A stretch of DNA of 56,008 nucleotides. It comes from Gammaproteobacteria bacterium (lineage in GTDB: Bacteria; Pseudomonadota; Gammaproteobacteria; Xanthomonadales; Marinicellaceae). The notes beneath the pieces are model-generated. The model worked only from the letters and a program-made list of their open reading frames with translations. It had not been told where the DNA came from and did no database searches. The stretch is from NCBI GenBank assembly GCA_030430025.1, contig JAUIGR010000017.1:1-56008 (forward strand). Reading direction: 5' to 3'. Positions 1 to 56,008 of this stretch are shown piece by piece. Position 1 is the first letter of the stretch; every line of letters starts with the position of its first letter. A program made the position numbers and the translations under genes.

Positions 1-222
1 TCACGATGCATTTTTATTCGCCGCTTCCATGCGGCTCTCAGGCTAACGTGAAAAAGTTTTCCAGAAACTTTTTTATGGTCGATGGTGTGGCACATGGAGG
101 TGCCACCTTGAGCCATCAGGCTCAAGTAAGGTCAAAAAAACATCAGCAAAATCACACTTTTGCGCTTAAGTGTTTTTTTGACCAATGCTGGAAAAGACCA
201 GGAGGGCCTTTTCAGGGCTAAC
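1..222 (+). repeat. Interspersed structured repeat, copy 1 (left part outside window)
   Basis: Begins inside the element and ends with the degenerate right terminus TTTTCAGGGCTAAC before TA at 223-224. It contains the internal hairpins of the family: CCGC/GCGG, AAAAGTTT/AAACTTTT, GTGGCAC/GTGCCAC (here imperfect), TTGAGCC/GGCTCAA and GGTCAAAAAAACA/TGTTTTTTTGACC. It lies 3 bases beyond the stop codon of the leftward HEAT gene, so its hairpins could act as that operon's 3' end. Other copies: 36019-36262, 40366-40595, 49527-49730, 54117-54421 and 55835 to the window end. Confidence 0.9.
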
Positions 223-35985: not shown

Positions 35986-36018
35986 GTTGTTTAATATCAA
36001 ACTGATTTTTGATAAGTA

Positions 36019-36262
36019 GTCACCCCTGAAAAAGTCCATCCTGGCCTTTTCCAGCATCGGTCAAAAAACACTTAACCGCAAAAGTGCGATTTTGCTGGTG
36101 TTTTTTGACCTTACTTGAGCCTAGCTGCTCAAGGTGGTACTTCCTTGTACCACACCGTCGACCAAAAAAAGCATTGAAACATTTGTTTTCTGGTCGAAAA
36201 ATATGTAGTTTGTAAGAAATTTATGTTATCTAACAACAACTTATGCATTTTTCAGGTTCGAC
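36019..36262 (-). repeat. Interspersed structured repeat, copy 2
   Basis: Reverse orientation. TA at 36017-36018, then GTCACCCCTGAAAAAG. The other end is TTTTTCAGGTTCGAC followed by TA at 36263. It keeps the large GGTCAAAAAACAC hairpin and a diverged GGTGG/CCACAC hairpin but lacks the CCGCTTCC/GCGG and AAAAGTTT modules. It follows the terminator of the propeller gene. Confidence 0.9.
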
Positions 36263-36264
36263 TA

Positions 36265-36790
36265 AGTAATCTATCATTTTTTGACTTGATGAAGTCATAT
36301 TGCCCAGGCCTTAACTCACGGCTCGCTCACTCAAACTCCTTGATCTTCGTAGCCTGCGCAGTCGTGGTTCCCAGCCTAATGCTTTCATCAGTTTCAAGTT
36401 TCAAAAATCAAACTCTTAAAGTCTCAAGCGTGCAACCAATCTTGCTTGACATGAACTAAATGACTGACCATCTGAATGATACTTGTGCTCAGATTGTCAA
36501 ACCAAGCGAATAACTCTTTCTTTGGCCTCTGGAGCGCAATGATTCAGTGGGCTTATTGGCTAATTTTCTCAAACGTTTTAGTCTCCGAAAAACTCAAGTG
36601 GCAAGGTGATCTTCTGGCATAAGGTCATCTAAACTAACAAACTCATAACTGGATTGAACCGGCAGACGGTCTTTAAACATAAGACCCTTATTAAAAGATC
36701 CCCACATACTTATGAGGACTTATCAGCAGTCTGAGGGGCATTACATGTATGAGATTATGCCCCTTGTCTAAATTCGAAGCAATAGCGTGT
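36265..36790. other. Gene-free stretch
   Basis: About 525 bases with stops in all frames and no recognisable gene on either strand. Possibly decayed coding DNA, judging from its less AT-rich composition around 36300-36420. I found no transposase signature here. Confidence 0.4.
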
Positions 36791-39496: not shown

Positions 39497-40366
39497 ATGA
39501 AAAATTTATTTTTGATGATTTATGCTGTTATTGGCATAACACTGGATACATCACAGGCTAATGGTTTAGAGTATGCCATTGATCAGCAAACTTTTACATT
39601 TGGCCGTTTTGTTGATTCGGCAGATCATGAAGCGATGCAAATGCCCATTGTCAGGTATGCTTATGCCAATGGCAGACCTGGTCACGTTGATTTGATTGGC
39701 GCTGTTCACGTAGGAGATGCTGCTTACTATGCTGAGCTCAATGAGCGATTTAAGAATTATGATGTGGTATTGTTTGAAATGGTTATGCCTGAAAACAGCG
39801 AAATACCTAAGAACCAAAAACTTGGCCAACAAAGTCCAGTGTCAATGTTGCATAACACATTGAAAAGTATTTTGGGTTTGACTTTTCAGCTCGATGAAGT
39901 GGATTACTCAGCCAGTAATTTTGTTCATGCTGATATGACGCCTAAAGAAATGGATCAAAGTATGGCCAACAAAGGCGAGTCATGGCTTAGCATGATCATC
40001 AAATTATGGCGAGCTGGTTTAGTACAACAGCTAACGGGTAAATCGCATATGAGTGATGGTGACTTGCTGATGGCCTTACTGTCAGGCGACACCCGAACTC
40101 ACTTGAAACGCATGATGGCCAAAGAACTAATGAACATGGATGAAACATTGCTGGCAATAGAAGGACAAGAAGGTTCAACTCTAATAACCGAGCGAAATAA
40201 AAAAGCCCTTGAGGTTTTGGAGCGAGAACAAATGAATCCAGCCAATCAAAAAATCGCCATATTTTACGGCGCCGGTCATCTTAAGGACATGGGGCAACGG
40301 CTGATTGATCAATTTGCAATGGTGCCTATCTCGGTTGAGTGGGTCGATGCTTGGCGGATTAAATAG
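39497..40366 (+). CDS. TraB/GumN-like exported protein
   Basis: 289 residues with a signal peptide (about 1-21). It contains DLIGAVHVGDAAYYAELN and, near the end, IFYGAGHLKDMGQRL, the two His-containing motifs of the TraB/PrgY/GumN superfamily, thought to be metal-dependent peptidases or erythromycin-esterase-like. Function here unknown, periplasmic by signal. Its stop codon TAG shares bases with the TA flank and first base of repeat copy 3, so that repeat inserted at or next to the gene's end. Confidence 0.8.
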   Translation: MKNLFLMIYAVIGITLDTSQANGLEYAIDQQTFTFGRFVDSADHEAMQMPIVRYAYANGRPGHVDLIGAVHVGDAAYYAELNERFKNYDVVLFEMVMPENSEIPKNQKLGQQSPVSMLHNTLKSILGLTFQLDEVDYSASNFVHADMTPKEMDQSMANKGESWLSMIIKLWRAGLVQQLTGKSHMSDGDLLMALLSGDTRTHLKRMMAKELMNMDETLLAIEGQEGSTLITERNKKALEVLEREQMNPANQKIAIFYGAGHLKDMGQRLIDQFAMVPISVEWVDAWRIK

Positions 40367-40595
40367 TCATTCCTGAAAAAATCCCTCCTGGCCTTTTCCA
40401 GCATCGGTCAAAAAAACACTTAAGCGCAAAAGTGTGATTTTGCTGATGTTTTTTTGACCTTACTTGAGCCTGAGAGTCGCATGGAAGCGGCGAATAAAAA
40501 TGCATCGTGACACCTGTTTCCTGGTCGAAAAAATGTGCAAATTTGAAGTAACTCTTTATATTTAACAATAAGTTATTGCATTTTTCAGGTTCGAC
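40366..40595 (-). repeat. Interspersed structured repeat, copy 3
   Basis: Reverse orientation. TA at 40364-40365, then GTCATTCCTGAAAAAAT; ends TTTTTCAGGTTCGAC, TA at 40596. It lacks the AAAAGTTT and GTGGCAC hairpins: the sequence jumps from CTTGAGCCT to GAGAGTCGCATGG, as if deleted between two GAGCC/GGCTC repeats. Confidence 0.92.
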
Positions 40596-40601
40596 TAATT
40601 A

Positions 40602-40617
40602 GTCAATCCTGAAAAAG
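40602..40617 (-). repeat. Solo terminal end of the structured repeat
   Basis: GTCAATCCTGAAAAAG preceded by TA (40600-40601), five bases after copy 3. It matches the right end of the family and nothing more, so it is a remnant of a second insertion or of partial excision. Confidence 0.7.
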
Positions 40618-40642
40618 TCGACATCCCCATAAGTAAAAAAAA

Positions 40643-49526: not shown

Positions 49527-49730
49527 GTCGAACCTGAAAAATGCATAACTTATTGTTAAATATAAAGAATTACTCCAATCTTGCATATTTTTTCGACCAG
49601 AAGACAGCTGTCACTATGCATTTTTATTCGCCGCTTTCGTGCGGCTCTCAGACTAACGTGAAAAAATTTTCCAGAAACTCTTTTTTGACCAATGCTGGAA
49701 AAGACCAGGAAGGACTTTTTCAGGACTGAC
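49527..49730 (+). repeat. Interspersed structured repeat, copy 4 (short form)
   Basis: TA at 49525-49526, then GTCGAACCTGAAAAATGC; ends TTTTTCAGGACTGAC, TA at 49731. It has the CCGC/GCGG hairpin, but the GTGGCAC, TTGAGCC and most of the GGTCAAAAAAA modules are gone: AAACTCTTTTTT runs directly into TGACCAATGCTGG. Lies between the KdpE-like gene and trkH, 7 bases before the trkH start. Confidence 0.93.
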
Positions 49731-54027: not shown

Positions 54028-54116
54028 GGCTGATATTCTATATCGCTCCATCACTAATGACCAAAGAATGTTTTACAAAGGACTGTGTACGGGCACCTTG
54101 GTGGTTATTGTAAGTA

Positions 54117-54421
54117 GTCGAACCTGAAAAATGCATAACTTATTGTTAACTATCAAGAGTTACTTCAATTTTGCACATTTTTTCGACCAGGAAACAGGTG
54201 TCACGATGTATTTTTATTCGCCGCTTCCATGCGGCTCTCAGGCTAACGTGAAAAAGTTTTCCAGAAACTTTTTATGGTCGATGGTGTGGCACAAGGACGT
54301 GCCACCTTGAGCCGTCAGGCTCAAGTAAGGTCAAAAAAACATCAGCAAAATCACACTTTTGCGCTTAAGTGTTTTTTGACCGATGCTGGAAAAGGCCAGG
54401 AAGGACTTTTTCAGGACTGAC
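54117..54421 (+). repeat. Interspersed structured repeat, copy 5 (full length)
   Basis: 305 bases with TA at 54115-54116 and 54422-54423. Left end GTCGAACCTGAAAAATGC, right end CTTTTTCAGGACTGAC. The ends are imperfect inverted repeats (15-16 bp). Internal hairpins in order: CCGCTTCCATGCGG; AAAAAGTTT/AAACTTTTT; GTGGCAC/GTGCCAC; TTGAGCC/GGCTCAA; GGTCAAAAAAACA/TGTTTTTTGACC with GCAAAA/TTTTGC inside; CTGG/CCAG. No coding frame of note. Taken as the reference copy. Confidence 0.95.
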
Positions 54422-54540
54422 TAAGTAACAGTAATCTCAGATGGGAAATGGCAAAAGCGCCCACCGCCTCAGAAGATTTCTGAAGCAGTGATTCATAATT
54501 TAGACAAACAGCAAAACTGATATTCTGCTATCAAAAGTGC

Positions 54541-55390: not shown

Positions 55391-55394
55391 TTCA

Positions 55395-55752
55395 GTTGAG
55401 TTGGTCTGTAAGCCGGGTTCTGTTCGCTATCGCGCGGCAATCATTCATCTGGGACTGTCATTGCTGACAGCCTCAAGCAACCTACCCGAAAGCGATGCGG
55501 GCAACATCATTGCTTTCCTATTTGGTCTTGCTCCAAGTGGGGTTTACCTGACCGCTTTTGTTACCAAAAGCGCGGTGCGCTCTTACCGCACCATTTCACC
55601 CTTACCCCTCGCCTAACGTTAGGTGAGAGGCGGTATCCTTTCTGTTGCACTGGCCGTAGGCTCACGCCCCCCGGATGTTATCCGGCACTTTGCCCTATGG
55701 AGCCCGGACTTTCCTCGATTGTTAAACAACCGCGATTGCCCGACCAACTCAG
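55395..55752 (-). ncRNA. rnpB: RNase P RNA, bacterial type A
   Basis: On the minus strand the universal RNase P RNA landmarks occur in order: GAGGAAAGTCCGGGCTCC near the 5' end, CCAGTGCAACAGAAAG, GGTAAGGGTGAAA-like sequence, GGTGCGGTAAGAGCGCACCG, GGTAAACCCCACTTGGAGCA, GGTTGCTTGAGG, CAGATGAATGATTGCC, and AACAGAACCCGGCTTA near the 3' end. The P1 stem pairs GAGTTGGTC (55750-55742) with GACCAACTC (55406-55398). Length about 358 bases, normal for type A. It is the catalytic RNA that trims tRNA 5' ends. The ends are estimated from P1. Confidence 0.95.
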
Positions 55753-55834: not shown

Positions 55835-56008
55835 GTCGAACCTGAAAAATGCATAAGTTATTGTTGGATAAGATAAATATATTACAATCTCCATATTTTT
55901 TCGACCAGAAAACAAGTGTTTCAATGCTTTTTTATTCGCCGCTTCCATGCGGCTCTCAGGCTAACGTGAAAAAGTTTTCCAGAAACTTTTTTATGGTCGA
56001 TGGTGTGG
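55835..56008 (+). repeat. Interspersed structured repeat, copy 6 (right part outside window)
   Basis: TA at 55833-55834, then GTCGAACCTGAAAAATGC. It includes the CCGC/GCGG and AAAAGTTT hairpins and stops at GGTGTGG at the window end. Its last 70-80 bases equal the corresponding part of copy 1, but the bases before that differ (CAATGCTTTT against CGATGCATTT). Confidence 0.93.

Follow-up and report, generated by a model that had tools for sequence, protein, structure and literature searches.

The window analysed here, 56,008 nucleotides in length, spans the whole of contig C73 from an uncultured bacterium (G000), whose 3.08-Mb genome is assembled in 114 contigs. Re-reading of the sequence located six copies of a genuine repeat family at the coordinates given in a preliminary description, together with the solo end claimed beside copy 3, as follows:

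1..222, plus strand: MITE copy 1, of the 305-bp form, left part lost at the contig start; right flank TATTTA (223-228)
36019..36262, minus strand: MITE copy 2, of the short (~247-bp) form, 244 bp; TAAGTA at 36013-36018 and 36263-36268
40366..40595, minus strand: MITE copy 3, with an internal deletion; flanks TAAATA and TAATTA, 5 of 6 letters in agreement
40602..40620, plus strand: solo end GTCAATCCTGAAAAAGTCG, arranged in tandem with copy 3, from which TAATTA (40596-40601) separates it
49527..49730, plus strand: MITE copy 4, with an internal deletion; duplication TACTTA on both flanks
54117..54421, plus strand: MITE copy 5, the full 305-bp form; TAAGTA at 54111-54116 and 54422-54427
54216..54273, plus strand: hairpin unit of copy 5 (extent approximate), in the 305-bp form and missing from the ~247-bp form
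54379..54421, plus strand: terminal 43 bp on the right of copy 5; comparison with other full copies at this end indicates homology to free 43-bp elements
55835..56008, plus strand: MITE copy 6, right part lost at the contig end; left flank TAATTA

Since the window is an entire contig, its two ends truncate copies 1 and 6. Other copies at contig edges were found on C51, C79, C17 and C32 (among the best 40 of 231 candidates scored), and the repeats therefore seem to break the assembly. The density, previously called high, is about twice that found elsewhere, with 6 copies in 56 kb vs 21 merged matches over 400 kb on three other contigs, two of these matches belonging to the 43-bp class. The imperfect terminal inverted repeats, reported as GTCGAACCTGAAAAA against GTCAGTCCTGAAAAA, are both correct. 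Copy 5 overlaps no open reading frame (ORF) of at least 80 codons, but the absence of any coding frame does not extend to all copies, some of which contain a chance 96-codon frame (L018:1515-1805). The ORF at 39497-40366 has its stop codon at the edge of copy 3. In an Rfam scan of the window, an RNase P RNA gene (55393-55751, minus strand, 353 bits) was the only match above the gathering score; it lies outside the copies, none of which matched, and copy 6 is located 83 bp upstream of its 5' end.

A genome-wide search for further copies with TAGTCNNNCCTGAAAAA, allowing at most one mismatch, returned 162 forward and 156 reverse matches (318) against 16 + 11 (27) for the reversed-pattern control, and is therefore far beyond chance. 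True ends number about 290 in the genome, which corresponds to roughly 150 elements when every size class and the insertion sequences (IS) are counted. Across 21 genomes, a TAGTY version of the pattern without mismatch occurred 118 + 115 times in G000 and 13 + 13 times in G005 (probably HKST-UBA250), with zero matches in the 19 others. Used as a similarity query, copy 5 matched 7 of the 21 genomes; beyond G000 and G005, G001 and G004 each had a single diverged right half, all other matches being pieces of the hairpin unit. Among named public genomes, the left end was matched exactly in nine stretches, seven of them in 'Gammaproteobacteria bacterium isolate 3_bin.26' and two in 'Lysobacterales bacterium isolate HKST-UBA250'.

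The insertion footprint was characterized on 668 kb (22% of the genome, partly selected around ends), in which 211 ends formed 68 facing pairs, all kept in the counts, four of them (636-2512 bp) resembling chance or cross-element pairs. The 6-bp flanks were identical in 39 of the 68 pairs and alike in 5 of 6 letters in 18 more, against a mean of 9.8 exact matches (maximum 18) in 1000 shuffles of the right flanks. Since the end finder required TA beside ends with one mismatch, the two middle letters of the flank provide a fair test of duplication, and these agreed in 52 of 68 pairs vs 13.4 expected. The flanking TA noted earlier is thus present, but the real flank is a 6-bp direct repeat with the consensus TAnnTA, chiefly TAATTA, TAAATA, TAAGTA, TACTTA or TATTTA. 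We read the duplication as these 6 bp, and a 2- or 4-bp reading, with TA assigned to the ends, may also apply. In at least four places (window 40596-40620, C45:10957-10992, C107:160589-160592 and C11:81031-81034), a single TAnnTA is all that separates the ends of two elements, which is a tandem insertion into a pre-existing footprint.

An empty site was recovered within the same genome. On C53, a paralogue (~85% identity) of the sequence interrupted by the copy at C2:12130-12375 has a single 6-mer and no insert, the filled site reading AACAAC-TATTTA-element-TATTTA-AACATT vs AACAAC-TATTTT-AACAATT on C53, and this pair represents a precise insertion with a 6-bp duplication. A second case among the matches listed (C106 vs C2, 95 bp, 76%) is weak. 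The gene beside copy 5 was matched in 10 of 12 other genomes, same-genus relatives being about 71-79% identical in it; the 11 loci compared show no repeat, but the adjoining genes did not match there and the comparison therefore carries no weight.

The surroundings of the filled C2 site are themselves an IS (C2:10856-12462), flanked by TAATTA on both sides, whose ends GTCGAACCTGAAAAA and GTCAGTCCTGAAAAA are the MITE's own asymmetric pair; the MITE copy sits between the transposase gene and the IS end. This gene, on the minus strand, is broken by an insert carrying the hairpin GTGAAAAAGTTTTCCAGAAACTTTTT, and its pieces, with the domains DUF772 and DDE_Tnp_1, scored 153.5 bits (N-terminal, 148 aa) and 91.2 bits (C-terminal) against their best family, NF033578. 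Another IS at C45:9519-10971, also flanked by TAATTA on both sides and in tandem with a MITE end, has the ends GTCGAACCTGAAGAA and GTCGAACCTGAAAAA, of which one departs by a single letter. Its transposase, 40% identical to that of C2, is split into two frames covering NF033578 positions 2-184 and 190-419 (242.7 and 240.5 bits). NF033578 (transpos_IS5_1) was the top-scoring family for all four pieces, each alone falling below the NCBIfam cut-off of 275 bits because the genes are split. Nine transposase matches were detected in the genome: besides C2 and C45, they include contig-edge pieces on C49, C38 and C33, remnants on C53 (twice) and C107, and a distant homologue on C114 (open frame of 339 aa, 30% identity over 111 aa), at a locus with one end-like match and no TA before it. 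None of the nine is an intact transposase with MITE-type ends, C2 being interrupted, C45 split and the others, C114 apart, edge-cut or remnants. The query that finds the IS of G000 returned zero matches in G005 and 3_bin.26, two MITE-bearing relatives; the MITE is therefore an orphan in those assemblies, or the IS is missing from them.

The MITE identity put forward in the preliminary description is supported by the inverted ends, the target duplications, the empty site at the paralogous C53 locus and the ends common to full-length IS. Copies are short (<500 bp) with inverted ends and no transposase gene, 64 of the 68 pairs spanning 43-309 bp; direct repeats from target duplication accompany them at the frequency given above; and their ends match those of the C2 and C45 IS in the same genome, both without an intact gene. 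The C2- and C45-type IS are likely the mobilisers of the family; from the common ends and duplication, we infer that a transposase of this type moved the MITE and may do so still. We consider it probable, at about 0.87, that these repeats are a non-autonomous MITE family (43, ~204-261 and ~305 bp) moved in trans by an ISGlo4-type transposase of the IS5 family. In this model, which derives from sequence comparison, the transposase would recognise 15-bp imperfect ends GTC(N3)CCTGAAAAA and insert at TAnnTA with duplication of 6 bp; the IS5-family transposase of local IS would act in trans on gene-less copies; and the internal hairpins would be baggage carried over from source elements.

Relatives of the local IS were identified on plasmids, under the names given by the plasmid annotations. 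The best match to the N-terminal half of the C45 transposase was annotated as ISGlo4 (60.7% over 182 aa), an IS5-family element (NF033578) with TAGTC(N3)CCTGAA ends, like the local system, and an IS5-family transposase, as is probable for the local IS; it carries TAGTCGTCCCTGAA at both ends, and the site of the copy examined is without a 6-bp duplication. A relative annotated as ISRsp18 has GTCG(N2)CGTGAA ends (GTCGGCCGTGAAGAA/GTCGATCGTGAAGAA) and a 6-bp duplication (CATATA), again like the local system, and an IS5-family transposase, as is probable there too. Both encode a transposase, whereas the MITE lacks it and has little beyond the ends in common with the local IS.

The lengths among the 68 pairs are 43 bp in 8 pairs, 51, 115, 137 and 161 bp once each, and then 204-261, 276-279 and 305-309 bp. 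The 305-bp form corresponds to the ~247-bp form with about 58 additional bp, an insert that has runs of T at both edges and contains GTGAAAAAGTTTTCCAGAAACTTTTT. This insert is missing from the 11 copies of relatives in our alignment, and the hairpin was not found in 69 kb of two named relatives. In an unselected 456 kb of G000, 13 of 13 hairpin occurrences were inside MITE copies. Close variants of GTGAAAAAGTTTTCCAGAAACTTTTT were detected at eight loci in G002, G004, G009 and G011, in a different hairpin array with no adjoining MITE end, and the hairpin type also occurs once in the C2 transposase gene. Most likely, the ~247-bp form would have taken up this separate, genus-wide hairpin repeat once, the resulting 305-bp form then spreading with the MITE. 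Independently of the MITE, an array of hairpins that terminates in variants of ATGAAAAAGTTTTCCNGAAACTTTTTT is present at L034, L035, L036, L038, L039, L041, L042, L044 and L098:6627; arrays of this type occur in several species of the genus, and one copy breaks the C2 transposase gene. Nested in a family copy (L064:17725-17884, i.e. C11:97725-97884), we also observed another MITE-like element, ~160 bp long, whose ends are similar to GAGACCTCTGCATAAGTC and GACTTATGAAGAGGTTTC; related stretches, among the matches listed, occur beside the copy at L007 and at about 104.7 and 147.2 kb of C107. The ends of this element resemble the ISNme1/ISPg1 type listed in PMC4596501.

The 43-bp pattern was matched 28 times in G000 and 5 times in G005, with 0 matches in 19 other genomes and 0 for the reversed control. 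At least one of the 28 matches in G000 (C9:21758) belongs to a larger copy, as its right end, and was excluded from the free-standing set, which comprised 16 elements (13 from G000, 3 from G005) chosen for TA at both inner edges. Their flanks were alike in 5 or 6 of 6 letters in 12 of 16 cases, and the two middle letters in 10 of 16. The right 43 bp of long copies are homologous to the free 43-mer. A plausible alternative, to which we would give somewhat less than even credence, is that the 43-bp elements are in-place deletions of larger copies rather than mobile units, the left end having recombined with an end-like sequence located 43 bp inside the right end. Such a sequence is present at that position and in the same orientation in larger copies, some 43-mers read AAAAATGCCAGG, resembling a junction between the left end and this inner sequence, and a deletion in place would also preserve the flanking duplication. 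Against this origin, 43 bp is a discrete length recurring in two species, and the end letters differ, with GGGTTGAC in 6 of the 16 free 43-mers whereas GGACTGAC prevails in the full copies of G000 (32 of 48); the differing letters lean towards a separate 43-mer lineage. More tentatively, the 43-bp palindrome (two 15-bp ends and 13 bp, forming one hairpin) could itself be a mobile unit moved by a bacterial IS5-type transposase and the seed of the family, larger elements being nested from end-like hairpins and the unrelated genus-wide hairpin repeat, in which case their structures would record assembly, not function.

The preliminary description had taken the preserved stems as a sign of selection on RNA or DNA structure. 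Folding is indeed strong, at -95.7 kcal/mol (z -4.0) for copy 5 and -85.3 (z -7.3) for copy 2 (244 bp). In an alignment of 59 copies (48 from G000 and 11 from relatives), the named structure of 47 pairs kept pairing in 95.8% of cells (shuffled 95.2), with both sides changed in 7 pairs and 18 cells (shuffled 2.7 and 3.0). With the structure shifted by one column, such changes reached as many as 10 pairs and 15 cells, and the pair count by itself is therefore weak; 13 of the 18 cells fall in two adjacent pairs of one helix and may therefore reflect one event, inherited in several rows. The compensatory changes expected under that description thus exist in part, but they mostly separate subfamilies, so that the structure was most simply inherited from source copies. 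Among the 48 copies of G000, private mutations affected 50 of 4109 stem letters (1.22%) vs 80 of 8525 unpaired letters (0.94%), the stems having the higher rate (p 0.16), and the pair was retained in 15 of the 50 stem mutations, where the spectrum of changes at unpaired letters predicts 12.3. Single copies therefore seem free of structural constraint, within the resolution of 130 private mutations, which weak selection could escape; nearest-neighbour identities of 89-98% (median 96%, 48 copies) indicate that there was time enough for private changes to accumulate. Selection on the stems after insertion is accordingly unsupported.

Genomic placement was examined in gene gaps delimited by a rough ORF caller (at least 80 codons), leaving out 7 of 103 elements with a score of 20 or less. 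Over all DNA examined, the 78 classifiable copies were distributed in 53 tandem, 20 convergent and 5 divergent gaps, five copies overlapping ORFs and 13 lying unclassed at segment edges; the 230 background gaps of the unselected 456 kb were 140 tandem, 38 convergent and 52 divergent, and the copies of this unselected part alone were 13 tandem, 7 convergent and 1 divergent, with 2 over ORFs. The under-use of divergent gaps (p 0.0002) and over-use of convergent ones (p 0.045), like the strong folding and the excess of double changes, would suit copies domesticated as functional RNA or DNA structures, such as terminators or processing sites kept by selection after insertion. We regard this as improbable in view of the private mutations and the clustering of double changes, and avoidance of divergent gaps is equally expected from the purging of harmful promoter insertions, the scarcity there fitting a loss of promoter-hitting insertions.

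A MITE of IS630/mariner type, moved by a TA-duplicating transposase as earlier suggested, is very improbable: TA does lie immediately outside GTC/GAC in nearly all good copies (the end finder favouring TA) and the genome has one DDE_3 domain, but a TA-only duplication would leave adjacent letters unrelated, yet these agree, and the IS bearing the correct ends encode transposases that best match the IS5 family. The search for an IS630-type element with the same ends was negative in this genome, the sole DDE_3 match (PF13358; C28:3100-3438, L092; 135-aa frame) lying in a 3.3-kb locus without end-like match at fewer than 4 mismatches. Beside it lies a 300-aa frame that by eye resembles an IS256-type transposase. 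IS1634 (NF033559) was likewise discarded as mobiliser, with 0 matches in G000 and matches in 4 of 12 other genomes. Finally, an end pair 2.1 kb apart (C11:97681-99818), considered as an autonomous element, proved to be two separate copies flanking an ORF that resembles a neighbouring ORF, not a transposase.

The IS5-dependent MITE family favoured here can be set beside several known bacterial repeats. Correia/NEMIS and RUP elements are IS630/mariner-related MITEs, small, with TA at their junctions and stem-loops, which duplicate TA only; the present family is alike in size, junction TA and stem-loops, and differs by its TAnnTA duplication and probable IS5-family partner. BrickBuilt of Porphyromonas gingivalis and ATR of Neisseria are MITEs related to the IS5 family (PMC4596501) and share IS5-like ends, the lack of a transposase, stem-loops and a modular interior, but have GAGACCTTTGCA-type ends and other or variable duplications, BrickBuilt numbering 19 copies vs ~150 elements here. 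QMITE2 of Coxiella burnetii is another bacterial MITE that has direct repeats and whose transcript folds strongly; it differs by the length of these repeats (7-9 bp) and of its ends, 23-29 bp (PMC10969869). A partial literature search found no prior description of TAnnTA duplications.

This is a new MITE family of a familiar kind, unusual for its small size and modular make-up; what a specialist might not expect is the 43-bp class and the growth by modules. A very dense repeat family of uncultured gammaproteobacteria is now tied, through its ends and footprint, to a named IS type, and its repeats offer a reason for the assembly breaks at many copies. The private-mutation test provides a simple means of separating inherited from selected hairpins in MITEs. 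If the 43-bp class is mobile, the minimum substrate of an IS5-type transposase would be close to two bare ends.
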